From Myxococcota bacterium (GTDB lineage Bacteria; Myxococcota; UBA727; JAHDBA01), in assembly GCA_020627505.1 (NCBI GenBank), contig JAHDGS010000013.1, positions 2,862-36,216 on the forward strand: a stretch of DNA of 33,355 nt, written 5' to 3'. This document shows, in pieces, positions 1 to 23,289 of this stretch. Under the pieces are notes generated by a model. It had not been told where the DNA came from. It worked only from the letters and a program-made list of their open reading frames with translations, and made no database searches. How positions within the stretch are numbered: position 1 is the first letter of the stretch; each line of letters begins with the position of its first letter. A program made the translations under genes and the position numbers.

Positions 1-876
1 CATTACCAGTTTAACCAATTTCGCTATGCTCTATTTTATTATGATCGTGTCTCCAGAGACTCTTCGGCATGGCTAGACTCTTTATTTGAAGGCGCATGGG
101 CACATTTCAGATTAGCACAGTACGAGAATACCTTAGGCAACTTGGTGACGCTGCAATCCCCGTTTTTCAAAGATGAGTATTATCCTGAAAGTCATATTTT
201 GAAGGCGATCACATTTCACGAAAACTGTCGTTACCCAGAAGCACGTTCGTTCTTAGAGGAGTTCAAAGAGCGTTATGGAACTGTTCGTTCCGAAATCGAT
301 CGTATGTTGGGCGAGGACGCGTCGTCTGATCGCTTTTTCCAGACCCTTCTCGATATGGAAGATCGGTTAAGTACAGGTGAAAGCGAACTCGACAGCAGTT
401 CACAGGACACGTTAGCACGGGTTTTGAGGCTGGCGATGTCGGATACACGCCTGAAAGATTTTAGGAAAGCGATTCGAGAGATCGATCAAGAAAAAGAAGA
501 AATGAATAAACTGCCCGGTTCTTTACTCCAAGGTATTGGAAGTGAGGCGATGACGGCGATGGCGCAACGTCGAGGGGAGATTATGAAACGTGCAGGCCAG
601 ATTTTGAAAATCAAACTGAAACGTGAGCAAGAGTTTTTAACGAATCTCTCGTCTCAATTATCACGTATCGAATTCGAAATATCGAAAGGGGAAAAATCTG
701 GGCTGGAGGCACAGATTCGAAATGAAGGACAAGCTGTACCGCTGAAAAACTATAAATATTCGGCGGCAACTGATGATGAACGTGTCTACTATCCATTTGA
801 TGGAGAATATTGGCGAGATGAACTCGGCACATATGAATACACGCTAACACATGGTTGCCGTGAAGGAGACGGCTGA
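1..876 (+). CDS. TPR protein, 3' part of gene (GltC/NfsC-like candidate)
   Basis: The frame is open from base 1, so the gene begins upstream of the window; an internal GTG at 142 is not a convincing start because the residues before it (YALFYYDRVSRDSSAWLDSL and following) already look like a TPR repeat. About 291 codons are visible. The first ~90 residues are TPR-like helix pairs (FEGAWAHFRLAQYENTL, then HENCRYPEARSFLEEF). The middle is a charged helical or coiled-coil stretch, and the tail contains YYPFDGEYWRDELGTYEY. The TGA stop overlaps the gltD ATG (TGATG), so the two are translationally coupled. In the Nfs paralogue cluster a TPR protein, NfsC, precedes NfsD, so a GltC/NfsC role in the periplasm or at the outer membrane is the best inference. 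The N-terminus, and hence any signal peptide, is not visible. Confidence 0.62.
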   Translation, partial: HYQFNQFRYALFYYDRVSRDSSAWLDSLFEGAWAHFRLAQYENTLGNLVTLQSPFFKDEYYPESHILKAITFHENCRYPEARSFLEEFKERYGTVRSEIDRMLGEDASSDRFFQTLLDMEDRLSTGESELDSSSQDTLARVLRLAMSDTRLKDFRKAIREIDQEKEEMNKLPGSLLQGIGSEAMTAMAQRRGEIMKRAGQILKIKLKREQEFLTNLSSQLSRIEFEISKGEKSGLEAQIRNEGQAVPLKNYKYSAATDDERVYYPFDGEYWRDELGTYEYTLTHGCREGDG

Positions 877-3800
877 TGTCGATCGTGAATAAAGCGACTC
901 AGGTGAGTGTGTTGATTTGTGTGCTTGGGCTTATAGCTCCAGCCACAACAGCGCAAAGCAAAAAATCAAGAGGTCCCAAGGGCGATCGTGTTCCAAAGGT
1001 CATCAAAGAAGAAAAACGGGAGAAAGTTGATACGGCTCAGCAAGGTCCGAATCTTTCTTATCGTGATTTTGGAATTAGACAGATCGAAATCAAGCTCGAA
1101 AAGAAACGGCGAGATCTGATCAATCGCCTTGATGACATTCTGGCCTCGAATCCACCAAAGCGTGAGCGTCCAGAATTGCTGTTCCAGAAAGCGGAGCTTT
1201 TCCAAGAGCAATCTCAATTTCATTTCTTTGAGGGAATGGGACTCGATGATAAAATTGGTGCAGCAGAAGACCGGAAAAATACACGCGCCGTTAAATCGCT
1301 GAAAGCGAAGAAAGCAGCAGAGCTCAAAAAGAGTCGTGACTGGGTTAGAGACGCTGTCATCTTGTACAAAGAAATCGAAGATGAACACCCGAAGTATCGA
1401 CGGATGCCAGAAGTTCTTTTTGCGCTTGGGCGCGCCTATTGGGATGCGCAATCTTATAAAAATGCACTTCAAGTATACCGAAAAATTGTTAAAAGTCATG
1501 GCAATAGCCAGTTTGTTCCAGATGCCTGGTTAGCGTTTGGTGAATACTATTTCGAATACAGTCCTGAGAACGAACGAGATTTGAATAAAGCGCTGAGTGC
1601 ATATAATAATGTCCTGAATTTTGAGGAGTCGATGGTTTATGGTTATGCCATCTATAAAAAGGGTTGGGTTCAATTTAACTTAAATCAATTTGAAGAGGCG
1701 GCCGAGCGATTCAAAGAAGTGATTCTTTACTCAGATATCAACAGCGAAATACTCGGCGAGCGTCGTTTAGCACTCGCGCGTGAGGCGCGTCGAGACTATG
1801 TGCTTGCCTATTCTCGTTTTGGCGCGGGGCAGGCTGCGAAAGCGTCGTTTGGTAAGCTCGCAAAAAATGATGAAGATTTATACAAGATGCTGAAACGTGT
1901 TGGTGACATGTATTATGGCGATGGTAAAGATCGTGATGCGATCGTTGTTTATCAAACACTGATGGACATGAAGCCGAATGACATTCGTAATCCGGTTTAC
2001 CAAGGCAAGATTGTTAAAGCGGCTCACCGCATAGGTACGAAAGAACAAGTGGTCAAGCAGTCTGAAAAATTGGTCGCATTGTTAACCAAAGCCCAGGGCC
2101 AAATGAAGCGTATTCCAAAGACGTCGACATCATATGATGAATCGAAAATGAACTATGATGAAGCTGAGCGTGTCACGGACAATGTTCTTCGCTCATTTAG
2201 TACCACGTGGCATAACGAGGCGAAGAAAACACGATACAAAGAAACATATGCAGCCGCCAAAGACATGTATGAGTTATATTTGAAAACGTTTGCCAAAAGA
2301 AAAGAGGCTTATGATATTCGATTTTATTATGCAGAATTGCTTTATCGGCTCGAAGATTTTGAGCATGCGGGTGAAGAGTACACCAAGGTGTTCAATGCAA
2401 GCAAGAAAGGTAAGTGGCGAGAAACATCGGCTGAAGAAGCTGTTCGTGCCTATGATGAGTTGATCAAAGATTACGATGCAGCACATCGAAAAGAAGAAGA
2501 AGCCAAACTTAAGAAAGATCCGAAGCTGAAGCTTAAAGAGCGTCCGATACCGCCGGTTAAAAATAAATACCTGGAGGCATGTGAAACATATGTTCGCAAC
2601 TATCCCAAAGGTGCAATTGCACCTGAGGCAAAATACTCGATCGCGCGTGTTCATTACGGATATGGATATTATGACAAAGCTGTCCCAGGATTCTTAAAAG
2701 TGATCAAGGAGCATCCAAAGCATAAGCGTGCAGAACAAGCTGCTGACTTGGTGCTTGATACATATAACCTGAAAAAAGATTGGGCGAATGTCGATAAGTA
2801 CGCGCGACAGTTTGTTCGCAACAAATACCTGATGCAAAATGCTGACTTTAAGTCACATGTTCAAGAGATTCTGGAGCAAGGGAGTTTTAAACGTATTCAG
2901 TTGCTTGAGAAGAAGCAAGAATATGCAGCAGCTGCAAAAGCCTATGTCGCTTTTACCAAAGAGTTTAGAAAGAGTGACCTGGGAGATAAAGCATTAGCAA
3001 ATGGTGCAGCCATGTATGCCCGCGCGGGAGAGATGGATAAGTCAATTCAAACGCGTAAGGAGTTGATTGCGCGCTATCCGAAGAGTGAGCTGGTGAAAGA
3101 TCAAGTCTACGCTGTTGCGGCAGGTTATGAGAATAAAACCGACTTCAAGAATGCGTCAACATGGCTCACAAAGTTTGCCGAGAAATACGCGAAAGATGAG
3201 CGCTCGCGTGACGCACTATTAAATGCGTCCGTATATCAAGAAGGGATTGGCGACGTAAGTGGCGCGATTGAAACCCGAAAATTATTTTTGAAACGGTATC
3301 CAAAAGATGAGGCGGCCATCGATGTTGCATACACCATCCCGCACGCTTATGAGCGTTCAAAGCAGTGGGTGTCGGCAGTGAAGGCTTACAATTCATTTGC
3401 TTCAAAGTATAAAAATGTGCCCGCAGGTCAAAGTCGAGCCGTGGCCGCACAATATAAAGCTGTCATTTTGAGTCAGCAACATTATAAAGGTGCCGCCAAA
3501 GCCGCAGAATCTCAATTGGTGTTACAAGCGAATCGTTATGGTGCATCTAAAGGTGAACAAGATCCTGCTGCTGATGGTGTCGCTTACGTGGCATTTCAAA
3601 GAGCAGAGAAAAAATTTGAAGCTTATCAAAAACAAAAGATTGCTTCGCCAAATAACACTAAACTTTTCCAGAAAAGTCTGAAAGATAAAAAGGACAAGAA
3701 CCGCGCTGCAGTGATTAAAGGCTATGTCGATGTGGTGAAGATGGGGAGTCCTGAGTGGGCAGTTGCGAGTTTGTATCGGGTTGCACAGGTGACCAAAAAT

Positions 3801-4187
3801 TTGATGCAGAGTATCAATGCGGTACCAGCACCTCGCGGATTCAACGCTGAACAAAGAGACATCTTTAAGCAACAGCTTGAAGAACTCACGTTGCCACTTG
3901 AAGACGATGTTGTTGGGGCAATGGATCGGTGTGTTGCAGAAAGTGGGCGCCTAGGTGTCTATAATGATTGGACTGAAAAATGTGTTGCTTATTTGCAGAA
4001 AAACCGACCTGAACAATATCCGAACGTTGATTCCGAAAAGATTGTTGATGTGAATATTCCACAAAAATCGACTTATCAATCATCATTCTTAGGCGCGGTA
4101 CTCAGTGAACCTGAGTTTTCGAAGGCAGTCGAGTTTGTTGAAGGCACTGCGCCGAATAAAGATCATGCACCCAAAGGAGGCGAATAA
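876..4187 (+). CDS. gltD: Large periplasmic TPR protein GltD (AgnA-like)
   Basis: This 1103-residue protein starts with a Sec signal peptide: a basic start, then hydrophobic VSVLICVLGLIAP, with likely cleavage after ATTA near residue 26. AAGGAG lies about 7 nt before the ATG, and the start overlaps the previous stop. Nearly all of the mature protein is TPR-like repeats, for example FALGRAYWDAQSYKNALQVY, YAIYKKGWVQFNLNQFEEAA and YSIARVHYGYGYYDKAVPGF, with Lys-rich linkers. In M. xanthus GltD/AgnA is a very large periplasmic TPR protein of the gliding machine, and NfsD is its sporulation paralogue. Length, export signal and position immediately before a TPR lipoprotein (GltE) all fit. The stop overlaps the gltE start (TAATG). 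The glt identity rests on order and architecture; an Nfs-type role is possible, but the downstream gltI and gltJ favour gliding. Confidence 0.75.
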   Translation: MSIVNKATQVSVLICVLGLIAPATTAQSKKSRGPKGDRVPKVIKEEKREKVDTAQQGPNLSYRDFGIRQIEIKLEKKRRDLINRLDDILASNPPKRERPELLFQKAELFQEQSQFHFFEGMGLDDKIGAAEDRKNTRAVKSLKAKKAAELKKSRDWVRDAVILYKEIEDEHPKYRRMPEVLFALGRAYWDAQSYKNALQVYRKIVKSHGNSQFVPDAWLAFGEYYFEYSPENERDLNKALSAYNNVLNFEESMVYGYAIYKKGWVQFNLNQFEEAAERFKEVILYSDINSEILGERRLALAREARRDYVLAYSRFGAGQAAKASFGKLAKNDEDLYKMLKRVGDMYYGDGKDRDAIVVYQTLMDMKPNDIRNPVYQGKIVKAAHRIGTKEQVVKQSEKLVALLTKAQGQMKRIPKTSTSYDESKMNYDEAERVTDNVLRSFSTTWHNEAKKTRYKETYAAAKDMYELYLKTFAKRKEAYDIRFYYAELLYRLEDFEHAGEEYTKVFNASKKGKWRETSAEEAVRAYDELIKDYDAAHRKEEEAKLKKDPKLKLKERPIPPVKNKYLEACETYVRNYPKGAIAPEAKYSIARVHYGYGYYDKAVPGFLKVIKEHPKHKRAEQAADLVLDTYNLKKDWANVDKYARQFVRNKYLMQNADFKSHVQEILEQGSFKRIQLLEKKQEYAAAAKAYVAFTKEFRKSDLGDKALANGAAMYARAGEMDKSIQTRKELIARYPKSELVKDQVYAVAAGYENKTDFKNASTWLTKFAEKYAKDERSRDALLNASVYQEGIGDVSGAIETRKLFLKRYPKDEAAIDVAYTIPHAYERSKQWVSAVKAYNSFASKYKNVPAGQSRAVAAQYKAVILSQQHYKGAAKAAESQLVLQANRYGASKGEQDPAADGVAYVAFQRAEKKFEAYQKQKIASPNNTKLFQKSLKDKKDKNRAAVIKGYVDVVKMGSPEWAVASLYRVAQVTKNLMQSINAVPAPRGFNAEQRDIFKQQLEELTLPLEDDVVGAMDRCVAESGRLGVYNDWTEKCVAYLQKNRPEQYPNVDSEKIVDVNIPQKSTYQSSFLGAVLSEPEFSKAVEFVEGTAPNKDHAPKGGE

Positions 4188-5548
4188 TGTTGAAGAATAT
4201 TTATGCCATCACACTTATGATTGGTCTCTTGGGTTCAGGCTGTGCTTCGAAGCAAAAAACAGATTCAAAATCTTCTGCCAAAGCAGAAGAGGTCCCAGCG
4301 TTAAATGTTGAACGTCGTGCAGACGAAAGCGAAGATGAGTTCCGCGTTCGAAAGGAAAGCCGTGAAGCTTTTCGAGCAGGTGTGATCGAAGTCAAGAAGA
4401 ACATCAAATCGAATAAGGCAACATCTTTGTTTAAGAAGGCGGTGAAAACAGATCCATCTTTTGGGTGGCCTGCTTATAACCTGGGTGTGCAAGCACAACA
4501 TGCTGGGCAGACGACCGTTGCGATTCAATATTATCAAGCTGCGCTGAAAGCTGATCCGAAGATCGATCCAGCGATACGCAACCTTGGGTTGCTACTTGGA
4601 CAAACAAGCTCCGAAACGGAACTGGCACGTTTTTATCGCTCGGCATTATCAAATGCGCCTGAATCAGCATGGGCCCGTGTGGGTCTCGCAGAACTGGCCC
4701 GAAATAATGACAACCAAAAGAAAAGCATGGAGCTCGCACGTGAAGCGCTGAAGTATAACGCAAAGCTTGTACCGGCATATGAGGTTTTAGCAGTCGGTTA
4801 CGCGGATGCGAAAAAGAATTCTCTCGCACGTTTATATGCCTTACGCGGGCAGCAGCTTGATGTGAATAACATTGAACTTGATTATGCGTTAGCGAAGGTC
4901 TTGTTGCTTGAAAATGATGTGAGTGCAGGGCGTGCCTTATTGAAGCGGATCTTATCAAAAGAACCGAATCATGAGGGGGCTCGCAAAGCATTTTTGGCAA
5001 TCGTGACCAAACGAAAAGATTGGGCAGGTGTCGCAGCACAACTCAAAGAGATTAGCGAGTTGGGTGTTCGTGATGCGGCATTATTTAATAACTTAGGTGT
5101 CGCACTTAAGGGACAAGGCCGTTTTGGTGATGCGCAAAAAGCATATGAAAAAGCCTTGTCGATTGACGCCGGTTTTGAAGAGGCGCAATGGAACCTTGGT
5201 TTATTAGCGTTGCAACAACTTAAAGACGCGGATAAAGCGAAAACTGCATTCAATGCTTATGCACGACTGAACCCCAAAGGTTACCGCGCTGTTTCACCAT
5301 GGGTGAAGAAAGCAGATGACTTGAAAAAATCACAAATGGAAGAAGAACGTATGCTTCGCGAAATGGAAGCCGAAGAAAAACGCATGGAGGCAGAGGCTCA
5401 GAAAGAGGCAGCTGAAGCCAAACGGCGTGCAGCCGAAGGGCCAAGTCCTGAAGAAATTGCGGCTGAAAAACAACGCCAAGCGGAAGAAGAAGCGCGAATT
5501 GCCGCGGCAAAGAAGAAAGCTGCCGCAAAGGCGCGGGCACGTCGTTAA
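4187..5548 (+). CDS. gltE: Outer-membrane TPR lipoprotein GltE (AglT-like), possibly truncated by an in-frame stop
   Basis: The 453-residue product starts with a lipoprotein signal, IGLLGSGC, with lipid-modified Cys19; Ala at +2 predicts outer-membrane sorting. AAAGGAGG precedes the ATG. Residues ~65-385 are TPR units (YNLGVQAQHAGQTTVAIQYY, LFNNLGVALKGQGRFGDAQK, AQWNLGLLALQ). Residues ~385-453 are a highly charged Glu/Ala/Lys/Arg helix. In M. xanthus GltE/AglT is a TPR outer-membrane component of the gliding complex, encoded between gltD and gltF as here. The TAA at 5546-5548 is followed in the same frame by 23 codons of matching composition and then TGA at 5618-5620, so the ancestral protein was probably 477 residues. 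The last codons before the TAA are CGT CGT. Confidence 0.75.
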   Translation: MLKNIYAITLMIGLLGSGCASKQKTDSKSSAKAEEVPALNVERRADESEDEFRVRKESREAFRAGVIEVKKNIKSNKATSLFKKAVKTDPSFGWPAYNLGVQAQHAGQTTVAIQYYQAALKADPKIDPAIRNLGLLLGQTSSETELARFYRSALSNAPESAWARVGLAELARNNDNQKKSMELAREALKYNAKLVPAYEVLAVGYADAKKNSLARLYALRGQQLDVNNIELDYALAKVLLLENDVSAGRALLKRILSKEPNHEGARKAFLAIVTKRKDWAGVAAQLKEISELGVRDAALFNNLGVALKGQGRFGDAQKAYEKALSIDAGFEEAQWNLGLLALQQLKDADKAKTAFNAYARLNPKGYRAVSPWVKKADDLKKSQMEEERMLREMEAEEKRMEAEAQKEAAEAKRRAAEGPSPEEIAAEKQRQAEEEARIAAAKKKAAAKARARR

Positions 5549-5620
5549 AGGCAACGGGCAGCTGCCAAAAAGAAGACAGCAAAGAAAAAGGCAAGCTCAG
5601 ACGAGGATTTCTTGGATTGA
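5549..5620 (+). other. In-frame continuation of gltE beyond its TAA stop
   Basis: Directly after the TAA at 5546-5548 the same frame reads RQRAAAKKKTAKKK, then ends SSDEDFLD before TGA (5618-5620). This continues the Ala/Lys/Arg tail of GltE without any phase change and closes with an acidic, hydrophobic end typical of a true C-terminus. The segment has no start codon or ribosome binding site of its own. It could reflect a recent nonsense change (CAA, GAA or AAA to TAA), stop readthrough, or a base-call error. Confidence 0.7.
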
Positions 5621-5661
5621 TGGCTCATTTAAAGACATGTAGGACACGCTCGCACGGATAT

Positions 5662-5691
5662 TTGACGAAGGCGAGACAGGTGGGATTTAAT
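5662..5691 (+). promoter_or_regulatory. Candidate sigma-70-type promoter of gltF
   Basis: TTGACG (5662-5667) lies 18 nt before TTTAAT (5686-5691), each matching five of six consensus bases. The predicted transcript would begin about 10 nt before the gltF ATG, with AAGGG at 5701-5705 as ribosome binding site. The -35 half lies in a 12-nt string, ATATTTGACGAA (5658-5669), that recurs upstream of gltH. A 5-bp inverted repeat CTCGC/GCGAG (5649-5653, 5671-5675) brackets the -35 box. The 157 bases between the gltE stop and gltF otherwise hold only the gltE tail continuation. Confidence 0.45.
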
Positions 5692-5708
5692 ATATAGTAG
5701 AAGGGTTG

Positions 5709-5993
5709 ATGAAGATGAAAAAGAGATCATTATTGAGTACCGTACTGTTCATTGTTTTGATGACGATGGGGACCAGCCTATTCGCTCAAGACGAGGGCGA
5801 AGGCGGTGATGGTGTGACATTTGAGTACGCCAAACGAACTGTGATCAATTTTGATGATGATACCATTGAAGGAAGTTTAAGAACACCAGACGGCCAATAT
5901 CTCGAGGTCCGAAAACAAGTTCGGCACGAGTCGTTGATTAGAATACGTCGTCATTTCAAACAGTCTGTTTTGGGCTCGTTTTCAAATTTGTAG
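5709..5993 (+). CDS. gltF: Small secreted gliding-complex protein GltF-like
   Basis: A short exported protein of about 94 residues. The start is taken as ATG 5709; ATG 5715 (MKKRSLLSTVLF) has better spacing from AAGGG at 5701-5705 and is an equally good choice, while the TTG at 5706 is not favoured. The N-terminus is a clear signal peptide (KKRSLLSTVLFIVLMTMG, cleavage near LFAQ), followed by an acidic Gly/Glu patch (DEGEGGDG). The compact remainder ends RRHFKQSVLGSFSNL. In M. xanthus GltF is a small protein encoded between gltE and gltG and associated with the periplasmic complex; size, export signal and position match. I recognise it by context more than by sequence. gltG follows after 10 bp. 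Confidence 0.6.
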   Translation: MKMKKRSLLSTVLFIVLMTMGTSLFAQDEGEGGDGVTFEYAKRTVINFDDDTIEGSLRTPDGQYLEVRKQVRHESLIRIRRHFKQSVLGSFSNL

Positions 5994-6003
5994 GGGGAGA
6001 GTT

Positions 6004-8154
6004 ATGACAACAATTCAATTAGATGTCAGTCGAGACGGAAAAGTTGTTCATAGTGAAAACTTTGAGCGAGAGACGATCAAAATTGGTCGACTTGCGTCGG
6101 CACATCTACGCCTCGAAGATGAAGCTGTTTTTCGAATCCATGCTGTGATCGAAGTGCTTGACGGCGGAAAAGAAGTGTCGATTGTCGATATGGGATCGCC
6201 TGCTGGGACATTGGTCAATGGTGAAAAAATCAGACGACATCGATTGAATTCAGGTGATGTGATTCGCATCGCGGATTATGAAATTGTATGCCAAGTCAAT
6301 ATTTCGGAGGTCCAGACTGAGCTCAAAACCAAGGTCGCAAACCTTGAAGAAGTTGAAGCGCAGATGCGGCAAATGGAAGACGCGACCAAAGTGGTTGACG
6401 TCAATCAAAACCGGGCTTCAGATCCATTTCTAGATCAACATACACAAGCCCTTGCAGAGGACTCGATTGTTGCAGAAATTAACTCTTTAAAGAAAATACC
6501 TTCTCAAGAAGGGGCGCCAGTCGCCGCTGCAGCACCTCAAGTTGAAAGCCGGAAGGCTGTGCCGCTTGATACGGTTGAAGATAATCCAGTTGAAGCAGGT
6601 GATTTTGGGAAGCTACCGCAGGCCAATCGTCTGTCTGCGACGGAGGCGACCGGCAGTTTAACGCTCGCACAATCGAATCATGGATTAAAGCAGGCGACCT
6701 CTAAAAAGCTGCGTAGTCGAGAAGAAGCGTTGAGTGGCCCAGCGTTGCCACATCCTGATGATACCAACGATCGGGAGATTTCTTCTGAGCGGCGTGTCGC
6801 TGAGGTGACCTTGTATTGGGGATCTGATGTTGCAACCGTTCGTCGCTTCGAGGCAGTCTCCGCTGGTGGAAAAGTCAAAAAAGATGCGGATGGCTCCGTT
6901 GTGATTGGTACATCTGACGATGCAGATATTTTTGTGCCGGTCGAAGCGCTGGGTGCAGGTGAGGCGCATACCTTATTGGTTCAGCAACCAGGTGTTGCGG
7001 AGTGGGATATTCGTATTTCACCCCAAATGTCTGGGTCTGTTTCATGGAAGGGGGAAACATTTGCGCTACAGGATTTTCCTGGTTTGAAGCATACAGGGCG
7101 TCCAGATTCGATTACGCTACGTGATGGTATGATCGTTCAGCTTAGTTTTGGGCACTTCACAACAGAAATTCGTCACTCGGAGAAAGCGCGCGTTGTCCCG
7201 TTCATTCCGTACTACGACACCATGTTTCTTAATACGATGATGATCACATTATTCGCCATGCTATTTACCATCGGTGGCTTCATGTTCACCCTTGGAGAGT
7301 TGGGTGATGGCGAAGATGACTTGATGAGTAACCTCAGTGAATTTGAATCGGTGATTCTTGAGCCACCTGAAAAAGATGTTCATAAAGCAACGCTTGATGG
7401 TGGGGGTGAAAAATCGAAAGCGTATAAAGACGAGCAAGGTAAAGCTGGTAAGAAGAAGGCGAAACCAAATAAAAAGAACCGTATGGCGATCAAAGGTGAG
7501 AAACGTGACAATAAAGCACTCGTCTCACAAAAAATGGCAGCGCTTTTTGGTGGTGGCCCCGGCGCGACAGGCTTGTTGAAGTTTGACGGTGATGCGGATG
7601 GCAGTGGTGAGATGATGGCTGCTTTGGGTAATATCACAGGTTCGCAAATTGGTGATGCGCACGGTAATGGTGGTATTGGGCTTTCTGGCAATGGTGCTGG
7701 TGGCGGCGGTGATGGAACTGGAACAATCGGTATTGGTAATGTCGGCACACGAGGTATGGGTGGTGGTAATGGCTCAGGTTATGGTGGTGCTGGCGGTGGT
7801 TTTGGTGGCAAAAAATATAAAAATGTTGGTGTCAGTGTTGGTAAGCCAAAAGTTCGCGGTAGTATGGATGCAGCGATCATTAAACGAATTGTGCGTGAGC
7901 ACATGAACGAGATTCGTTATTGCTATGAAAAAGAATTGAATCGAAATCCGGGTCTATTTGGTAAGATCATTATGAACTGGACGATTGGGCCAACAGGCTC
8001 TGTGTTGAACGCTCGTAAAGCGGCATCTCAGATGAATAATGCAGCAGTTGAGGGTTGTATGGCACGTAAGATTAAGCGCTGGAAGTTCCCACGCCCCAAA
8101 GGCGGTGGTGAAGTAGTGGTCAACTATCCATTTGTGTTTAAGCCATCAAACTAG
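6004..8154 (+). CDS. gltG: Inner-membrane FHA and TonB-C-type gliding protein GltG (PglI-like)
   Basis: This 716-residue protein has a GGGGGAG ribosome site just before the ATG. Residues 1-100 form an FHA domain (IGRLASAHLRLED, then LVNGEKI and DVIRIADYEIV), although the usual phosphopeptide-binding Ser before R-x-H is Phe here (VFRIHA). A second beta-rich domain spans ~265-390. One membrane helix lies at ~404-426 (FLNTMMITLFAMLFTIGGFM). A Lys-rich linker and a Gly-rich stretch (~513-603) lead to a C-terminal AgmX/PglI TonB-like domain (~614-716) with paired Cys640 and Cys685 and the typical RKIKRWKFPRP. The layout predicts a cytoplasmic FHA sensor, a periplasm-spanning flexible arm and a C-terminal outer-membrane contact. 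In M. xanthus GltG and GltJ both have this plan. The domain order leaves little doubt about the family; gltG versus nfsG rests on the neighbours. Confidence 0.85.
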   Translation: MTTIQLDVSRDGKVVHSENFERETIKIGRLASAHLRLEDEAVFRIHAVIEVLDGGKEVSIVDMGSPAGTLVNGEKIRRHRLNSGDVIRIADYEIVCQVNISEVQTELKTKVANLEEVEAQMRQMEDATKVVDVNQNRASDPFLDQHTQALAEDSIVAEINSLKKIPSQEGAPVAAAAPQVESRKAVPLDTVEDNPVEAGDFGKLPQANRLSATEATGSLTLAQSNHGLKQATSKKLRSREEALSGPALPHPDDTNDREISSERRVAEVTLYWGSDVATVRRFEAVSAGGKVKKDADGSVVIGTSDDADIFVPVEALGAGEAHTLLVQQPGVAEWDIRISPQMSGSVSWKGETFALQDFPGLKHTGRPDSITLRDGMIVQLSFGHFTTEIRHSEKARVVPFIPYYDTMFLNTMMITLFAMLFTIGGFMFTLGELGDGEDDLMSNLSEFESVILEPPEKDVHKATLDGGGEKSKAYKDEQGKAGKKKAKPNKKNRMAIKGEKRDNKALVSQKMAALFGGGPGATGLLKFDGDADGSGEMMAALGNITGSQIGDAHGNGGIGLSGNGAGGGGDGTGTIGIGNVGTRGMGGGNGSGYGGAGGGFGGKKYKNVGVSVGKPKVRGSMDAAIIKRIVREHMNEIRYCYEKELNRNPGLFGKIIMNWTIGPTGSVLNARKAASQMNNAAVEGCMARKIKRWKFPRPKGGGEVVVNYPFVFKPSN
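7546..7812 (+). repeat. Gly-rich low-complexity coding repeat in gltG
   Basis: Degenerate GGT/GGC-rich DNA encodes about 90 residues of Gly, Asn and Ser (for example GNGAGGGGDGTGTIG). It lies between the Lys-rich linker and the TonB-like C-terminal domain, so it probably serves as an extended flexible arm across the periplasm. The reverse strand gives a proline-rich shadow frame that is not a gene. Confidence 0.8.
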
Positions 8155-8180
8155 ATGAATGGTCTACAACGCTAAAGAAT

Positions 8181-8219: not shown

Positions 8220-8228
8220 GTGATTTAT

Positions 8229-8278: not shown

Positions 8279-8325
8279 TAAATGGATTGCCGAACCTAAA
8301 GGGAGTATCCTGAACATATCAATTT

Positions 8326-8330
8326 GGAGG
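8326..8330 (+). promoter_or_regulatory. Ribosome binding site fixing the gltH start
   Basis: GGAGG lies 5 nt before ATG 8336. It decides against the longer TTG start at 8324, which would overlap it. Confidence 0.8.
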
Positions 8331-8335
8331 GATAT

Positions 8336-15000: not shown

Positions 15001-18000
15001 TCATGCTGAGCAGAATTTTAACCAAGAATTAAAACTACTGACGGCACATGCAGATGAACTCAGGCGCACCCATGATTCTGCTTTGAGTGGTGTGCTGCTC
15101 TTTAAAGCACAAAGAGCAATACGATATATTGGCGAGCCCGAGACTGGATTTCAATCGCTTGGCGAATTATTAAAAAGACATCCTGATCGAGAAGATATTC
15201 GGGTGACACATGACCACTATGCCGAACAGTTTGCCGATTGGGACAGCTGGCTGAATGTTCAACGAGATATCTTTGAAGACAGTCAGGGAGTCGATCCTTT
15301 AATCGCAAAGCGATATGCGATCCGAGCTGCGGAAGGTTATCAAAAACATCTGGGTAATTATGACGCGGCTGCTGCGATGTACGAAAATGCGTTGCGGCTG
15401 AAGGTTGGCACATCGGAAGAGCAACAACATATCTTAGAAGCACTTCGGCTTATTTTTGTTGAACAAGATGAGGCTGAGGGGCAGCTTGAAATTTACGAAA
15501 AGTTGCTGGCTTTAACCCGAGCAGAAGCTGAAGAAGATGTTACAGATACACATCGTCAATACCTATCTAGTGCAATTACACTTGCACACGATCGACTGAA
15601 CGATGCCTTCTCGACGATTCGAATTGCTGAAAACCATTATCAAACACTCAGTGAAATGCCAGCACTCTTGCGAGTTGTTGCAGATGCGTATCGGTCGCAG
15701 AAAAAATTTACAGCGGCAGTTGGTTATTTTAAAACCTTCATCGCGGCGCCGTCTATCGAAGAGGAAGAGCGCATTGAAGCCCGCTTATCCTTAGCGGAGA
15801 TCTTGAGCAAAGATCTACGGCAAGCCGATGATGCACGCGATGAATGGAAAGCGGTTCTTGAAGCTGACCCATTCAATGAAACGGCGCTTGAGAATGTCCG
15901 AGAGCGATTTGAACAGTCTGGTCGAGAAGATGATGGTCGTTTGCTTGTCGAGGTCTATGGGCGTCGTCATGATCCGACTGGTGTATGTACGTTATACCGC
16001 CAAATGGGTCACCATGCGTTCGAACGTCAAGATCGTCCGAGAGCACACAAAATGTACCTTCGTGCTGCAGATTGTGCGGAGCATGAGCTGCATGATGGCG
16101 AAATTGCCTTGATGTGTATGCTGCAGTGCATGCGTGTTCGGCCAAACGATCCCGATACACGTTCACGTGTTCGTTCTTTGGCCCGCCAACATGAGATGAA
16201 TGATGTTGTCGTCGACTTCCTCGAAGAATTGATTGACGATGTTGAGCATGAGGGGCGTAAAGTCTTGGCCGCAGAACTCAAAGAGATGTTGGGTGACATT
16301 CACTTGAACGAACTCGGTGAAACAGCTGAGAGTATGCGAATATTCGAAGCTGTTTTGCAAGCCCAACCTGGTCGACCTTATGCTTTTGATTGCCTCGTAC
16401 GGATATATATCGAACGCGAAGAATATGCTGCATATCGAGAACTGCGTTTGAAACGAAGTCGATCAACGCAAGATGATAATATACGGGCAGACGATCTCGC
16501 TGAAGCCGCTCGTGTTGAGTGTGAATTCTTAGAGCGTGCTTCTGAAGGGATTCGAAATGCACGGGCCGCACTCAAGTTGGTGCCTGAGCATCCTGTTGCG
16601 CGAGACGTTTTACTGAATCATATGGATGAAAGTGATGACGCGCCATTCATGCGCCGGCTGTTGGAGCGTGCACTCGCTGACCAGCTGAAAGAAGCACCGA
16701 ATGCTCAAGAAACACTGGCACTTCGAAAACGGCTTGCCGTATTTTTGGTTGAAGAATTGGGAGACTATTCAGCAGCCCAAGATCATTGGGAACGACTTTA
16801 TGAAGAAACAGGCTTACAGGCGATTGCATTTGTGACGCTGAGTGAGATCTATCATGAAACGGGGCAGCATACGAAATTTGAAGCACTTATTTCAGAGCAA
16901 ATTGAGTTATCGACGGATGTTGAAACACGTGCAAGCCACTTGTTAACACGTGGTCGTTTGCGTCTGTTGAAGTTGAAAGATCGTCCCGCCGCTATAGAAG
17001 ATTTGACACAGGCACTACGCATTGCGCCTGGGCTTGATGAGGCCCGTTCGAGATTGATCGATGCCTATCGTGAGAACGAAGACTGGGAATTACTTGCCGA
17101 AACCATACGGAGTGCAATACGTCGAACAAGCAAGAAAGAGGATAGCGCACGTCTTCGCTTTGACCTCGCTGATGTACTGATCGATCCATTGCAGCGTATT
17201 GATGAGGCGCATGATGTTGTCATGGGAATTTTGGAACTGGGTCACCTTTCAATGGGAGAGCTTGATCGCTGCCAGAAGATATTCGAGATATCTCAGTTTG
17301 ATGAGGGCCTGTTTGGCGTATATGACCAAAAAGCTGCTCAAACAACCGGTTCAGAAGCGGCATCATATTTACTTGAGATGGCTCGCATACGGCGTAAAGA
17401 TAAAGCAGGTCGACAAGACGCCATTGACGCTTATCGAAAGGTATTACAACTTATTCCTGAAGAACAATCTGCTGGGCACGAACTATCCGAAGTCTACGCT
17501 GAACAGGCGAATTGGCAGTCATGGGTGAAGTTACAAGAAGAACGTCTTGATGTCACCAGAACACCTGCCGAACGCAAGACGATCTTGGTTCATCTGATGC
17601 AGGTGTATGAAAAAGATCTGATTCAACCAGATATGGCGTTTCTGGCGGCCTGCCGTGCCTATAAAGAAGATGAATCGGATGAGTCTATTCGCGAAAAAGT
17701 CGAAGCATTAGGCTTTAAGACTGACAATGCAGAAATTGTGATTAGTGTTTATGAAGATGTATTGGATGGCGTACCAGATGTGAGTCGGACAGCATTCTTT
17801 TATGAGCGTATGGGTGATATCGCTGTTCAGCACTTGGATGAAGCGGATGAAGCAGAACGATACTATCGACAAGTTCTTGAGATCAATAGCCGTTCATTAA
17901 TTGCACTCCAGGGCCTGAAGTCCATATATGGTCACCAGAAAAAATGGGGGCCATATGTTCAAGTCGGACGTCGACTGGCTAAGTTAGCTGATACAAAAAC

Positions 18001-21000
18001 CAAACGTTATGATGGGTTGGTTTCGATTGCTGAGCATATCTATGAATCTGAAGGTGCTGTGCCCTTGGTTTTGGATGTCTACCGCGAGGTGTTGACTATA
18101 TCTCCAAATGAGGCTGAGACGCTGCGTCGAATGAGTGAGTTATGCGCTGCTGGTGATTTGTGGGTCGACTGGCTCGAAATCATGCAGCGTCGTATTGCAG
18201 CAGCGAAAACAAAGAGTGAACAAAGAGCACTTCGCCGAGCAGTGGCCGATATATATGAGACGGAAATGAATGATTTAGAGCGTGCGCTCGAAATGCATCA
18301 TTTGAACCATGAGCACGAGCCCAATGACCTACCGACGTTGCGCTCCATGACGCATATCTTGACGGAGTTGGATCGTCAGCGAGAAGTGATTGATTATTAC
18401 GAAAAAATCAATCTCACTTCGAGAGACTTGAATGAACGTATTGAAGTTCTGTCCAAAGTTGCTGCTATTTGGGATACGGGTCTAAACAACCAGAATGAAG
18501 CTTTACGCTCATTAGAGAAGATTCTTGAGATTGACCCTGGGCATATCGGAACACTTGCTTATGCTGAGCGCCTTGCGAAAGGACTCGGTGATCAAAACCG
18601 CCAAATTCGCTTACAGCGCCAATATGCGTCGCACGTTGACGCGCCTGAAACACGATTGCGTTTATTATCAGAACTCGGCGCATCACTTCACGGACACGGG
18701 GAAACAGAAGCCGCTGAACGTGCCTATTATGATGCGCTTGAGCTTGATGCGCAATATCAACCGGCCCTCATCGGCCTTGCCGATTTCTATCAACAACAGC
18801 AGCGATATAAAGAGCGCGTTAAAGTTCAGAAAGATTTGGTTCAAGTCACCCAAGACGTTGACTTAAAACTGAATACACTCACAGAAATGGGTGATACGCT
18901 ATTACAACATATTGGTGACCTTGATGCTGCTGATGCAATCTATCAGCGTGTATTAAGACTCGAGCCAAAGAACTTGCATGCGCTTTCACAATTGCAAGAG
19001 ATTAGTGATTCGAATGGACATCAGCGCAATGCGCTCACGTGGTTACAGCAACGTGCGCGAGCGACAATCGATGAACAAGAACGTGCGATTCTATTCAGTG
19101 AGGCTGGGGATCGATTTATCGCTGCTTTTGCAGACCCGCGTGCGGCAACCGAAGAGTACGAGCAAGCACTCTTGGCTGTCAATCATCATGTGCCAGCGGG
19201 ACTGGCTTTGATGGATATTTACTATAAATCTGAAAATTGGAAAGCACTCGAGGCGTTATTATTATGGTTGGTCGAAGAAAAAGAAGCGGCACAAGGTCCC
19301 AAAGAGCGTGCCGCAATTCACTTCCGGCTAGCCTATGCTGCCGAACGACTGGGGCATGAAGAAATTGCATATACGCATTTTGGACAAGCACATAAACTCG
19401 ATCAGAAATCTCTGAATGCAGCTGAAGGCTATATTCGTGGTTTGGTGAAAAGAGAGCAATCACTGGCTGCCGTCAAAGCATATCAAACAATTTTGGTCCA
19501 TCATCACGACAATCTTTCGCGTGCAGAGATTGTTGAAATACACCATCATGTTGCAGAGCTCTATTTGAAAGTTGGCGATCGTGAACGCTGTGAAAAGAGT
19601 CTTTTGCGCGGACTCGAACTCGACCCGCATCATCAGCCTTGTCTGACATTGCTCGCGCATACGCAACAGCTCTCTCAGAATTACGAAGCAGCGTATGAAT
19701 CGATGAATCGGCTCATTCAATTACAATCGGGCGTCGAAAAAGTTGATACGCTAAGGGCACTGTCGACACTATCGGAAGAACATTTAAATGATATCTATCG
19801 TGCGATAGATGCGCTCGAGGAGGCCAATCGACAGCAACCTGGTGATATCACGATTCTGCGTCAGTTATGTAAGTATTACCAAAAAACAAAGCAATCGAGT
19901 CGTGCTGTTGATATTTTGTCTGAACTGATTCGCTTAACAAAAAATAAAGCAGATAAAGTCCGCCTCCATCACAGCCTTGGTGAGACGTACCGCGACGAAC
20001 TTCGGCAAACCGAAGTTGCGATTCAATGCTTTAACGCTGCGCTTGATATTGATGCAAAACATTTGAAGAGTTTTCAGGCCATCGAACAAGTCTTAACACA
20101 CGAAAAAGATTGGCGTCTGCTGGAAAAAAATTACATCAAAATGTTGCAGCGACCGATCGAAGATACACAGGCGAAGCTGGTCATTTGGCAAACCCTGGGT
20201 GACTTATATCGATTCAAAATTAAGGACTTTAAAAAAGCGGTTCAAGCTTACGAAGTGGTCCAACGGGCACACCCTGAAGATCTTGACTTAGTTGTACGGT
20301 TGGCAGAACTTCAAAGAAAAGATCCGACGTCTTTAGATAAGGCGAGAGCTAATTATATCGTTCTATTGAACCGCAGTGTTGAACACGAGCGTGCTGCCGT
20401 TCATGCATTGTTTTCGATTGCGATTGAGCAACGCGATCTTGATTACGCGTATGTGATTGCCGGTGCAGCACTTGCATTGGGTGATATGAACGAAAAAGAA
20501 GAACAGTTTTATCGTGCTTACAAGCGAAAGAAAAAGAAACAATCTCCAAAATCATTGACAATGGAGTTATGGATGTCACATGTGATCGTTGATGAGGTGA
20601 ATCGCGATCTCGCGACCATTGCATCCGCATTATCTCGCTTTGGGGCTGAGCTCTTATTCAAGCCAACAAAAAACATCACACGGAATCGAAAGATTGAAGA
20701 GATTGATGTCGATGCGCCTGTCGTTTCATTTTTTGCGAAGCAAGTTCGTTATGTACGAGAAATGATGGGATTACATCGTGTCAGATTTTTTGTACAAAAG
20801 TCTGCGAATGCCCCACTTGAGCCCGTTCCGGTTGTCGATCCAACACTTGTTGTCGGTGTTGAGCATGAACTCCTTCAAGAGACAAATGAACCATTGATTT
20901 GGTTTAATATTGCACGCCAATTAGGGGGGCTGATGCCACCATTTATCGTGCCACGTTTGCTTGGGCGAACGCAGTTCCAAGCATTGGTTGAACAGGTCAT

Positions 21001-21382
21001 TTTGTCGATCGATCCAACCTATGGCTACGTGTCCGATGCACAAACGTTGGCGAAATACAAAAAACTCGTTGCCCGACTGATGGAAAACCCACAATTTGTG
21101 GATCAAGTTCAACCTGCCATTCAGGGCTTATTAACACGAGGAGAGCGGGTATCTTATCGCGGCTATATGGAGGGATTGGAATACTCCATTTTGAGAGCGG
21201 CATTTTTGATTACCAATGATATTGAAATTACGACGCGTGCGATGCGTGCGCCAGCGCCTTCGACACGTTATGCACCAGCTTGGGGAGATCGCTTGCGTTC
21301 GCTTGTTCGCTATTGTGCTTCCGATCGCTATATGGAAGTACGACATGCTCTACGACTGGGGCAAAGGATTAAAAAGGGTTAG
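9047..21382 (+). CDS. gltI: Giant cytoplasmic TPR protein GltI (AgmK-like)
   Basis: This is the largest gene in the window: 4111 codons with no signal peptide or membrane helix. ATG 9047 is only 2 nt after AGGA, so ATG 9056, in frame and 11 nt after it, may be the true start. Residues ~1-3830 are degenerate TPR/HAT helix hairpins. The repeats become more canonical toward the C-terminal half, with recurring A-x-x-x-Y-x-x-x-L-x-x-x-P patterns such as EAERYYRQVLEINSRSLIAL and AADAIYQRVLRLEPKNLHAL. Residues ~3840-4090 are a distinct non-TPR domain (PTLVVGVEHELL, LIWFNIARQLGGLMPP). M. xanthus GltI/AgmK is a cytoplasmic TPR giant of similar size encoded next to gltJ. It likely acts as a scaffold linking the cytoplasmic cluster to the GltG/GltJ tails. 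The stop is 2 bp before gltJ, so the two are almost certainly co-translated. Confidence 0.82.
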   Translation: MIDMVSSEQKPEEMDNTFDSRWLFFRYRVAQSEEQRSALLETCRKHPFSSIAEQKIVLGECRQLIEEGYQSVDLWRYIITLADELNAYQLARQGRYYLCLNDDTLEESQRRQLWRSHMLSMFRKSHWRWAYTTWCDLEAEYGFSGVFNTLGADNVALLFSSCGLVHVLLRGIEQEISNGAPSTFVDVEMVTGLETEHAVRWLCALTPQIAFGTQIHTVVHRWLRSIVCDELSDDVQTQVRTLLERFEEWEDAPQKIYHEATTARDREDAAILYLGYTLKQHQREDADAIEIESLWKRIFRLVPLMPAALDVLLEKQIAPPDSIQRLLGHQLRRQQSTIQSTYVYRRLYESGPHNPLKLSLPTFDEIIEGHLFHLIEAPRLIGHALEQVDQEKASVERLNRAFSVMKKCAHWLDIRQPIRQIWTMLYRHGDIVRAADVASWLGKTFSDIEAVVSASQWYVEQHLISDTYGLIYRQIALSSPTTVMQSAQLGTYLSCSEHFSEHGQARQALVVATWCFQLWPSAKTEAAFIRFAEHQLSDTQILDIYRSIDIELTDNEKYMGSFATQHAEVSFRAGHYLQAFKQLSDLQQLELPREGLEEAWLAAFTGIQTDREQRLSALTLLPDIKSPAVMNQVLSICLKHATSVEENTKIQEAIERFFHVLDESTFTSWLAYVHKHERHSQVRELCTTLNQQKVIWQEPVLVRRLIQMLDVVVTDDAWSRSQLSAVLELFEGMPYPDRLIINISKWLERMKDKARLVGVVSSHWRSQGDFERASDVLRHNFDSHIPLQKQHGFALEYMAIPELAYATSLSMFLWRARLLSDKESETAEAFFEESIAATLTPVERQVLYTSLIEYVETEVDDEEHEDVLREVAESLMRSSSLIGGQPICPAPTFGTEEGHIDWPTTFDNYCRALGDISYHRGRVIDGIISMLKTRHLLFGDVSDTLAQTLEKTTDLTRQQFENLFSTSDDWYNLIFDNDALNAVGQRLLSICSAHFYMHILDVGGEQARQTKSYKPYMAILVYPDLADEVRAQCWPQVLKRLDRDIADIPNDLYATATQSIYDALDDEQQFSLLADQLEGLLDILYGLADEACVDRLSKIRESEARLAEVYAEDLMQPERLYQLLHRRCTTFPNDSDAFEQIQGLAKILNRRADMVQLAEHMIDRLKEKTPSQWFSIFQDDIFCSDEKRISYLQKYAQYVQHDDAWFSVLETGLSSGDWESASEALQYLDEDYLKRRAASFARYEDTLLRESTVTQFNVFMPLLRLFLNINPNAHRVRERIIAFHREHGDYHAAHQQLHVLFEFTQRPEHYQQLLTMVYEHGHDDTLMTLLQSTVTRELSAEEESLVWISYLRLFENPDYSEHAGSWLEAFYKEHEKWIELADLHEQLADSKTNTSEQLHHLDQIVSTNWHQLDQPHAAYDFALKALKISYSEAREETCFELAEQLEDLEPVAQLVSQHLISLNDPHDVSTIARRAAFYVASVDDESDWVRHFSEIVVKHDPHDEAAYNLLEQHAAQTNSFDEASVLLDLRIEAAGETADQIKLSQALVSKYENAGAWEQAESTHRKLLKLAPNDYGVFQHFDQFLKEREKIDQREIHLKKMAAQFTNHDQYGRVLGTLIELYIRDLGEPGDALPWIEQAHEHGEASSRILEWLSVVDEHDTDGHSTASVASLKHRVLRDAQLFEQAALHAERVATQQETQEAQVFWLDQAREDWLEGAHVEQAFMNMIKRIDIDANLADGIQSFLQLATDSDNLDMVADVLLSTAEDIDDVKLKSEMLYAAASYIEEPIEAIPAYTEAAALNDAYMVDAVEFVLAHEHEGADYQQHISSLVNHINATTHRSLYLKLLERQTRIAQKSGDAESVIQNLYEQVKINPDDSRLKWRLLDELIQHRSSEESIKFARTFLDELSSVEDDDCPRLAKMLSGLLASHKPDARSWHAHYVHAKSLGWTDARWLEDGEQALSKLSSKIDRLDRHMLRVYLIQAYHAEQNFNQELKLLTAHADELRRTHDSALSGVLLFKAQRAIRYIGEPETGFQSLGELLKRHPDREDIRVTHDHYAEQFADWDSWLNVQRDIFEDSQGVDPLIAKRYAIRAAEGYQKHLGNYDAAAAMYENALRLKVGTSEEQQHILEALRLIFVEQDEAEGQLEIYEKLLALTRAEAEEDVTDTHRQYLSSAITLAHDRLNDAFSTIRIAENHYQTLSEMPALLRVVADAYRSQKKFTAAVGYFKTFIAAPSIEEEERIEARLSLAEILSKDLRQADDARDEWKAVLEADPFNETALENVRERFEQSGREDDGRLLVEVYGRRHDPTGVCTLYRQMGHHAFERQDRPRAHKMYLRAADCAEHELHDGEIALMCMLQCMRVRPNDPDTRSRVRSLARQHEMNDVVVDFLEELIDDVEHEGRKVLAAELKEMLGDIHLNELGETAESMRIFEAVLQAQPGRPYAFDCLVRIYIEREEYAAYRELRLKRSRSTQDDNIRADDLAEAARVECEFLERASEGIRNARAALKLVPEHPVARDVLLNHMDESDDAPFMRRLLERALADQLKEAPNAQETLALRKRLAVFLVEELGDYSAAQDHWERLYEETGLQAIAFVTLSEIYHETGQHTKFEALISEQIELSTDVETRASHLLTRGRLRLLKLKDRPAAIEDLTQALRIAPGLDEARSRLIDAYRENEDWELLAETIRSAIRRTSKKEDSARLRFDLADVLIDPLQRIDEAHDVVMGILELGHLSMGELDRCQKIFEISQFDEGLFGVYDQKAAQTTGSEAASYLLEMARIRRKDKAGRQDAIDAYRKVLQLIPEEQSAGHELSEVYAEQANWQSWVKLQEERLDVTRTPAERKTILVHLMQVYEKDLIQPDMAFLAACRAYKEDESDESIREKVEALGFKTDNAEIVISVYEDVLDGVPDVSRTAFFYERMGDIAVQHLDEADEAERYYRQVLEINSRSLIALQGLKSIYGHQKKWGPYVQVGRRLAKLADTKTKRYDGLVSIAEHIYESEGAVPLVLDVYREVLTISPNEAETLRRMSELCAAGDLWVDWLEIMQRRIAAAKTKSEQRALRRAVADIYETEMNDLERALEMHHLNHEHEPNDLPTLRSMTHILTELDRQREVIDYYEKINLTSRDLNERIEVLSKVAAIWDTGLNNQNEALRSLEKILEIDPGHIGTLAYAERLAKGLGDQNRQIRLQRQYASHVDAPETRLRLLSELGASLHGHGETEAAERAYYDALELDAQYQPALIGLADFYQQQQRYKERVKVQKDLVQVTQDVDLKLNTLTEMGDTLLQHIGDLDAADAIYQRVLRLEPKNLHALSQLQEISDSNGHQRNALTWLQQRARATIDEQERAILFSEAGDRFIAAFADPRAATEEYEQALLAVNHHVPAGLALMDIYYKSENWKALEALLLWLVEEKEAAQGPKERAAIHFRLAYAAERLGHEEIAYTHFGQAHKLDQKSLNAAEGYIRGLVKREQSLAAVKAYQTILVHHHDNLSRAEIVEIHHHVAELYLKVGDRERCEKSLLRGLELDPHHQPCLTLLAHTQQLSQNYEAAYESMNRLIQLQSGVEKVDTLRALSTLSEEHLNDIYRAIDALEEANRQQPGDITILRQLCKYYQKTKQSSRAVDILSELIRLTKNKADKVRLHHSLGETYRDELRQTEVAIQCFNAALDIDAKHLKSFQAIEQVLTHEKDWRLLEKNYIKMLQRPIEDTQAKLVIWQTLGDLYRFKIKDFKKAVQAYEVVQRAHPEDLDLVVRLAELQRKDPTSLDKARANYIVLLNRSVEHERAAVHALFSIAIEQRDLDYAYVIAGAALALGDMNEKEEQFYRAYKRKKKKQSPKSLTMELWMSHVIVDEVNRDLATIASALSRFGAELLFKPTKNITRNRKIEEIDVDAPVVSFFAKQVRYVREMMGLHRVRFFVQKSANAPLEPVPVVDPTLVVGVEHELLQETNEPLIWFNIARQLGGLMPPFIVPRLLGRTQFQALVEQVILSIDPTYGYVSDAQTLAKYKKLVARLMENPQFVDQVQPAIQGLLTRGERVSYRGYMEGLEYSILRAAFLITNDIEITTRAMRAPAPSTRYAPAWGDRLRSLVRYCASDRYMEVRHALRLGQRIKKG

Positions 21383-21384
21383 GG

Positions 21385-23289
21385 ATGCTGTTCACGTGTA
21401 AAAACTGCGCTGCGCAATATAAAATACCTGATGAGAAGATCGGGGCGCGTGGTTCGAAAGTTCGTTGTAAGAAATGTGCGACGGTTGATGTTGTTTACAA
21501 AGATATCTCTGAACAGTCGACAGCTGTTCAACCGAGTGTAAAAGAAAATACAACATCATCAAATGCAGGTGACTTTGATCAAGCACGTACACGAATTGGT
21601 TCTTTGCACAACAGCGATGAAAATACGAATAGCTTTGACGCCGTAGATAAAAATACAGGTGCCACATCATTTGATTTAAAAAATGTGGGTGCTTCGAAAG
21701 ATCGCGTCCAACAAGCAGATGTGATTGCTGAATCTGGTACACACGTATCGGCACACCTCAATGCAGCTTTTTCTGAGGTATTCTCAGATGAAGCAACCGC
21801 CCAACAAACGCCACAACCATCATCAAATACCGAGAAAGCATCTTGGTTTGTCGCGATTGGTGATGAAGAACGTGGCCCGCTCAAAAAAGATGAGGTGGTC
21901 ACGCTGATTCAGCAGAGTCAATTGCGGCCAGCAGACTTGGTGTGGAACCAAGGCATGTCTGACTGGAAGGCTGCGAAGGATGTGAAAGAGCTCGCAGGTG
22001 TATTTGAAGTGAAGCCGCCTGAGTCAAAACAGACATCAACGACCTCGCAACCCCAAAACCAAAGTGATATGTCGGCCCAAGGTTTGACGGGGATTTATCA
22101 AGCGGCACAGATGATTGGTTCAATTCCATCTGCTGAATCGGAAGCAGTCGAGCCTTCTCAAATAACGTCTTCTAGACATGAAATGCCCACCAAAGAGGCT
22201 CCCCAATCGAGCGAAAGGCGCCAATCGTTGAGCAAGCCATCGCCTTCTTCAAACAGAACGGAGCCAGCGGATCCATATGAAGAAAGTGAGAGTGCCTTGT
22301 GGAACCCGGCTGCAGCCGGAAGCCTCCAGGAATTGGCGAATCGAGAAATTCAAACGATCGACTCGGAGCGTTCTCGTGTTGGATACGCAGAGCTTTCTCC
22401 AACACGCTCTCCTGAGGTGGGGCACACGGTTGTTGGTATTTCACCTGTTCACAGTGTGCCACCAGCTCGACCATTGATCACAGACGATATTGATTGGAAA
22501 ACCTGGTTTCTCAGAGGCGGACTCGCACTCCTCATTTTGGGGACAGTCGGTGCGCTTGGTTATGGTGGTTACCAGATGCTGGGCCAGTCTGATGAGCAGG
22601 TTGTCACATCGCAAAAAGAGGTAGAATCGACCGAGCCTTCGGCGAAAACCCAAACGGCCAACAATGATAAAAGTGAAGACGAGTCGGGCAAGACGGCTAA
22701 AGTAACAAAAAAGCCTATTGTTGAAGAGGTGAAACAAGAAACGAAGTCGCCGACATCGGCGCCGACAAAGCCAGAGCCACAGCCAGAACCGAAGAAAGAA
22801 GAACCCAAAAAAACAGAAGTGAAGAAAGAGCAACCAAAACCGAAGCCGGCGCCGAAGCCAAAACCAAAACCTGCGCCGAAACCAAAACCAGCCCCTAAAC
22901 CAGCCCCTGAACCTACGCCTAAACCGAAACCCGCGTCGAGTGGCTCAAGTGATTGTGATCCGATCCTTGACTTTGGTTGTGACAAAAAAGTGACATCTGG
23001 TTCATCCAATTCGGGGAAATCACGTTTATCGAAGAGTGATGTTCTTCAAGTCGTCCGAGACAATATGGGCGCCGTGAAGCGTTGTGGAAAGAAACATGGT
23101 GCCTCGGGTAAGATTGTTATGCGTTGGCGAATCATGAAATCAGGTCGTCCTTCAGAGGTTGGGGTTGTGACGCCTGAGCATCAAGGGAGTGCTGCAGGGA
23201 AATGCGTCGTATCATCTATTCGAGGGTGGTCGTGGCCGTCATACTCAGGCAAAAGTCCAGGGGTCATTAAAATGCCTCTGAAATTCTAA
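21385..23289 (+). CDS. gltJ: Zinc-ribbon/GYF/TonB-C gliding protein GltJ (AgmX-like)
   Basis: A 634-residue protein with AGGG directly before the ATG. Residues 1-40 form an MJ0042-type zinc ribbon with Cys5, Cys8, Cys28 and Cys31. Residues ~153-210 form a GYF_2 domain (WFVAIGDEERGPLKKDEV, LVWNQGMSDWKAAKDV). A disordered linker precedes one membrane helix at ~376-398 (GLALLILGTVGALGYGGY). Residues ~466-517 are a Pro/Lys-rich periplasmic arm, followed by SSDCDPILDFGCDKK, and ~547-634 form the AgmX/TonB-like C-terminal domain with Cys567 and Cys607. In M. xanthus the GltJ cytosolic zinc ribbon and GYF modules connect the machine to the MglA polarity GTPase, and the periplasmic arm contacts the outer membrane. 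This is the most diagnostic architecture in the cluster and supports the gliding reading over Nfs. Confidence 0.88.
   Translation: MLFTCKNCAAQYKIPDEKIGARGSKVRCKKCATVDVVYKDISEQSTAVQPSVKENTTSSNAGDFDQARTRIGSLHNSDENTNSFDAVDKNTGATSFDLKNVGASKDRVQQADVIAESGTHVSAHLNAAFSEVFSDEATAQQTPQPSSNTEKASWFVAIGDEERGPLKKDEVVTLIQQSQLRPADLVWNQGMSDWKAAKDVKELAGVFEVKPPESKQTSTTSQPQNQSDMSAQGLTGIYQAAQMIGSIPSAESEAVEPSQITSSRHEMPTKEAPQSSERRQSLSKPSPSSNRTEPADPYEESESALWNPAAAGSLQELANREIQTIDSERSRVGYAELSPTRSPEVGHTVVGISPVHSVPPARPLITDDIDWKTWFLRGGLALLILGTVGALGYGGYQMLGQSDEQVVTSQKEVESTEPSAKTQTANNDKSEDESGKTAKVTKKPIVEEVKQETKSPTSAPTKPEPQPEPKKEEPKKTEVKKEQPKPKPAPKPKPKPAPKPKPAPKPAPEPTPKPKPASSGSSDCDPILDFGCDKKVTSGSSNSGKSRLSKSDVLQVVRDNMGAVKRCGKKHGASGKIVMRWRIMKSGRPSEVGVVTPEHQGSAAGKCVVSSIRGWSWPSYSGKSPGVIKMPLKF
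22831..22938 (+). repeat. Pro/Lys-rich tandem coding repeat in gltJ
   Basis: Repeated CCN-AAR codon pairs encode a KPKPAPKPKP-type arm, the rigid periplasm-spanning segment typical of TonB-like proteins. Several DNA units are near-identical, so the repeat number may vary between strains. The Gly/Phe-rich frame on the opposite strand is a shadow. Confidence 0.8.

Follow-up and report, generated by a model that had tools for sequence, protein, structure and literature searches.

A row of genes resembling the gltD-E-F-G-H-I-J gliding cluster of Myxococcus xanthus, in DNA of moderate GC content, raises the question of which machine it encodes, whether that machine is complete, and how it was acquired. 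The row lies at positions 1-23289 of the window (the whole stretch of 33,355 nucleotides that was analyzed), which is the terminal 33 kb of contig C84 of the source genome G000, a 2.77 Mb draft MAG that is 70% complete. Comparisons were made with G001, the nearest relative (same family, sister genus; 93% complete), with G002 (same order, another family), and with G057, an M. xanthus-like genome used as reference. We consider it probable that half of a genuine Agl-Glt machine, the transducer, is encoded in the window, and that this machine was vertically inherited in Myxococcota and serves, most likely, adventurous-type gliding.

All eight frames of the row, counting the part of gltC, are present in the window, and gltD to gltJ follow one another in the M. 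xanthus order, as a sequence-only reading of this DNA had proposed. The genes and the evidence for each are as follows.

1..876, + strand: 3' part of gltC, in a frame open at the left (NF033756, E 1.3e-96 on the partial frame; phylum-wide search)
L006:1983-3737, + strand, same contig: full gltC gene, containing a run of about 102 N
876..4187, + strand: gltD, secreted TPR protein, 1103 aa (similarity, synteny, tree)
4187..5548, + strand: gltE, TPR lipoprotein with an LLGSGC lipobox-like start, 453 aa (NF033758, E 8.9e-45)
5706..5993, + strand: gltF/cglF, small secreted protein, up to 95 aa (NF033764, E 1.8e-25)
6004..8154, + strand: gltG, FHA, TM, and TonB/AgmX C-terminal domain, 716 aa (NF033760, E 1.6e-122; FHA, 1.2e-14; tree)
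8324..9034, + strand: gltH/cglE, outer-membrane barrel, up to 236 aa (NF033755, E 1.4e-27)
9047..21382, + strand: gltI, TPR solenoid, 4111 aa (TPR families; similarity and synteny with G057 GltI)
21385..23289, + strand: gltJ, zinc ribbon, GYF, and AgmX C-terminal domain, 634 aa (NF033761, E 2.4e-43 end to end)

Stop/start overlaps were confirmed at gltC/gltD and gltD/gltE. The GltC-like gene had been described as fused to the front of the row; the overlap is real, but the gene is a separate, ordinary gltC that is cut by the window edge. When the proteins were searched with NCBIfam models, as had been suggested, those for GltC, GltE, CglF, GltG, CglE, and GltJ all matched, with E-values from 1e-25 to 1e-122. 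Among the Glt models, CglE (=GltH) alone cleared its curated cut-off (96.7 versus 70 bits), CglF (=GltF) fell narrowly under it (88.8 versus 90 bits), and GltC, GltE, GltG, and GltJ scored well under the curated equivalog cut-offs, as expected of a distant branch. For GltD and GltI, none of the Glt-specific NCBIfam models matched. GltD scored 536 bits with the syntenic G057 protein (32% identity; 52% with that of same-family G001), and GltI scored 364 bits with the syntenic G057 GltI, the lengths being 4111 and 4132 aa; M. xanthus GltI is likewise 4132 aa long (PMC3169522). GltJ also matched the solved M. xanthus GltJ domains, i.e. the zinc ribbon (7zok) and GYF (7z3c).

GltA and GltB had been reported as not in view, which turned out to be an effect of the window. 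The remainder of gltC lies in the first 2.9 kb of the contig, along with two GltA/GltB-type barrels (OMP_myx_plus, TIGR04565; 282 and 313 aa). Both match the pair of barrels located ahead of gltC in G057; since each matches both G057 barrels, the assignment of GltA versus GltB is tentative. The genes thus form a contiguous, single-direction block A-B-C-D-E-F-G-H-I-J on C84 with several stop/start overlaps, and profiles, similarity, and synteny place both the core transducer proteins (GltC, D, E, and G) and the gliding-specific ones (GltA, B, F, H, I, and J) within the Glt families. In G001, no gltK could be seen upstream of the barrels; the G000 contig stops 194 bp before the first barrel, in a MAG that is 70% complete.

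The ten-gene glt order is identical in G001, and a one-block layout was also found in G048, G030, and G035. The barrels and/or gltC adjoin gltD in G002, G004, G020, G026, G033, and others; in G057, gltC is 3 Mb away from gltG. The M. xanthus genes are divided into G1 (gltD-J), G2 (gltK-B-A-C), and M1 (aglRQS), and Luciano et al. (2011) reported that the homologues of G1 and G2 lie together in Anaeromyxobacter and deduced the loss of ancient linkages (PMC3169522). The one-block layout is not new, being common in Myxococcota, and the further lineages that have it support one block as the ancestral arrangement.

The Nfs machine consists of paralogues of the Glt proteins, which might make the window set a sporulation-type Nfs machine. 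We inspected this by maximum-likelihood trees of GltD (36 rows) and GltG (37 rows), built by a quick method with SH-aLRT support and without bootstrap. The results showed that in both trees glt, nfs, and a third Glt-like set each lie on one side of a branch with 99-100% SH-aLRT, and that the window GltD and GltG belong to the glt clade (SH-aLRT 99 each), beside their own family and then their own order, and outside nfs. The choice between glt and nfs that had been left to a tree thus comes out for glt. The separate, well-supported nfs clade holds another set of G000 (contig C42, L038:253-9727), and the nfs loci that were read showed no match to gltI or gltJ. An Nfs identity is contradicted by the two trees, and we assign it a negligible probability. 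Nfs-type sets were found phylum-wide, and we know of no fruiting or sporulation in the G000 lineage.

The trees also bear on the origin of the block. GC content by sampled loci was 45.5% in G000, 48.4% in G001, 67% in G002, and 71% in G057, and a value below that of the classical groups might suggest horizontal acquisition of the cluster, or contaminating DNA of a classical myxobacterium. However, GC is uniform (44-48%) across contig C84, same-family G001 has the identical block plus identical right-hand neighbors, and the GltD and GltG gene trees track genome kinship. Uniform GC, synteny, and tree order together rule out a foreign source, which we hold to be exceedingly improbable. The moderate GC that had been pointed out is therefore real, but it is a trait of the G000/G001 family, which differs from another family of the same order in this respect, and does not point to foreign DNA.

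The host belongs to an uncultured order inside Myxococcota. The placement of the cluster 'outside the well-studied group' was only partly right: the order is uncultured, yet the phylum is Myxococcota and Glt sets are phylum-wide. Named AglR matches ranged from uncultured 'Myxococcota'/'Myxococcales' MAGs to Myxococcus, Corallococcus, and Archangium, the nearest being on a JAHDBA01 contig ('Myxococcota bacterium isolate MAG-10'). A direct search of the same named genome collection found no close GltG relatives, while the AglR search gave matches.

The genome search that had been advised found homologues of AglRQS, MglA, and MglB in G000. The two outcomes named beforehand as refuting, proteins outside the GltD-J/Nfs families and a genome lacking a TolQR-like motor, did not occur. 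AglRQS is encoded on contig C9 as a TolQ-TolR-TolR triad of 223/161/198 aa. Its best G057 match is a triad of 245/162/194 aa, which are the published AglRQS lengths (PMC3169522). The membrane Asp, the key motor residue, is conserved in AglQ and AglS of C9. The AglR group as one clade is weak (52/78), and the G000 AglR is placed in the order-level AglR group with 100/100 support. Contig C101 encodes a vWA protein with a weak resemblance to CglB (NF033757, E 4.6e-22, 78 bits versus a cut-off of 200). Contig C110 (L040) carries recR, mglB, and mglA and, next to mglBA, the third Glt-like set (L040:8165-19996). This set has a TolQ/TolR/TolR motor of its own, and in the first of the two TolR-like proteins Asn is aligned with the membrane Asp. 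The third set is conserved in several lineages, and mglBA adjoins it in G057 and several other genomes.

Judging by homology, GltG and GltJ would dock the AglRQS proton channel in the inner membrane. GltD, GltE, and GltC would then carry force across the periplasm to GltF and the barrels GltA/B/H, and GltI together with the zinc-ribbon/GYF part of GltJ would constitute the cytoplasmic assembly side.

The genes to the right of gltJ occur in the order GlnE-like, sctQ, fliO, sctR, sctT-type, epimerase, and kinase, and this order is the same in G001. Those identified by family are as follows.

23687..25870, + strand: GlnE-like adenylyltransferase, 727 aa, not part of the machine (PF03710, 1.7e-46; same place in G001)
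26132..27613, + strand: sctQ-like C-ring protein (TIGR02551, 109.8 bits versus cut-off 100.8)
27616..27999, + strand: fliO-like protein (PF04347, 6e-10)
27995..28786, + strand: sctR, start approximate, longest frame from 27893 (TIGR01102, 235 bits versus cut-off 208.6)
29068..29883, + strand: sctT/fliR-like export gate (PF01311, 6.9e-52)

The GlnE-like protein is shorter than the 946-position bifunctional model, whose second nucleotidyltransferase domain was matched weakly. A flagellar origin of the export genes was rejected, as no rod/hook family was found in G000 or G001 and SctR and SctQ clear secretion-type cut-offs; the FliO-like gene leaves some ambiguity in this reading. In G057, the best match to the window SctR (56%) is encoded at 2.85 Mb, flanked by SctQ/FliO/SctT-type genes, and this position suggests that the export genes are related to T3SS*. 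The needleless T3SS* of M. xanthus (mxan_2434-2464) is used in prey lysis and predation (PMC12075869). The export genes adjoin glt in both family genomes and are unlinked in the others checked; in G002 and G057, SctR-type genes are on a different contig or distant from glt.

The frame at 28671-29075 (134 aa) matches no family and looks out-of-frame; it overlaps sctR, lies just before sctT, and was not taken as sctS. A promoter/terminator scan of the right end gave counts near chance. On C138 (L058), an FlhA/SctV gene is split into two overlapping frames, possibly by an assembly frameshift. Six genomes of the same order (G005, G007, G011, and G013-G015; family f5) are 1.1-1.8 Mb in size and have little or no glt; their SctR proteins are 61-64% identical to the window SctR.

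In Myxococcus, MglA-GTP sets the assembly of the machine. The G000 mglB-mglA pair (L040:7023-8099 on C110) is in its normal genomic place beside recR, and its products match PDB entries (MglA to MglA, E 7e-56; MglB, 4e-18). MglA keeps the P-loop, the R53-type switch Arg, and the Q82-type switch Gln; given these catalytic residues and the normal place, it may still work. The sequences have nevertheless diverged. MglA and MglB are 48% and 31% identical between G000 and G002, as compared with 85% and 67% between G002 and G057, whereas for most machine proteins tested the G000-G002 identity is at least as high as the G002-G057 identity, as kinship predicts. Other exceptions to the kinship order were gltI and a short gltJ alignment (in the reverse direction), and recR was approximately level. 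Canonical MglA in other sampled genomes is 73-88% identical to M. xanthus-like MglA, to be compared with 48% for G000 MglA, which is on a branch of length 1.29; G000 MglB is 36% identical to its M. xanthus-like counterpart.

At the syntenic site of G001 (L200:3711-3966), about 255 N-free bases separate recR from the gene that comes next in the locus, and mglBA is missing between them. The search of this 93% complete genome found no Roadblock protein, and its sole MglA-family match was a 293-aa paralogue that groups with a 303-aa one of G000. G001 nevertheless keeps glt and aglRQS. The absence of mglBA from G001 may be real, although incompleteness cannot be fully excluded. With MglAB sharply diverged in G000 and lost from its site in G001, this family has probably relaxed or rewired the way in which polarity or reversal is controlled.

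The MglAB divergence could mean that the machine serves another surface-transport task. A functional Agl-Glt machine might thus serve attachment or contact with prey by moving an adhesin or a surface polymer, without gliding of the whole cell, much as the Nfs proteins of M. xanthus work with AglRQS in a non-motility role, the building of the spore coat (PMC3858216). A polarity switch diverged in G000 and missing in G001, and a genome of just 2.8 Mb, are in line with this, but the gliding-specific gltA/B, F, H, I, and J have all been retained, and the trees group the window set with gliding Glt and away from Nfs. We therefore regard this alternative as unlikely. The sequence-only reading had named gliding or polymer transport; the Glt gliding set is there, and gliding is the explanation that best fits the sequences. 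More tentatively, and with less than even probability, the complete AglRQS-Glt machine may work without a canonical MglA/MglB switch (lost in G001, remade in G000), the assembly of focal adhesions being triggered otherwise, such as by the longer MglA paralogue of both genomes or by a direct coupling to prey contact and the neighboring T3SS*-type apparatus.

The machine itself is ordinary; less ordinary are the divergence or absence of MglA/MglB and the T3SS*-related genes after glt. With these results, an uncultured family with small genomes of moderate GC content joins the lineages in which the Glt/AglRQS set is apparently complete, and genomes that have the motor and the transducer with decaying MglA/MglB provide a natural test of whether the switch is indispensable.

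As compared with the M. xanthus Agl-Glt system, the ten glt genes A-J, the D-to-J order, the domain make-up, the AglRQS-type motor, and the MglBA neighborhood are alike. G000 differs in having G1 and G2 in one block, 45% GC, a 2.8 Mb genome, and MglA and MglB with 48% and 36% identity to the M. xanthus-like proteins, and in that gltK was not seen (contig end, MAG 70% complete). The Anaeromyxobacter-like genomes (G048 and G030) share the single block of two barrels followed by gltC-D-E-F-G-H-I-J; G000 is a distant branch inside the glt clade, and, unlike in G000, the SctR-type genes of these genomes are distant from glt. The M. xanthus Nfs spore-coat machine (PMC3858216) has paralogous GltC/D/E/F/G-type proteins, and G000 also has an Nfs set, but the window set is outside the nfs clade. 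With the M. xanthus T3SS*, G000 shares the SctR match, and no flagellar rod/hook family was found in it; it differs in that its export genes directly follow glt.
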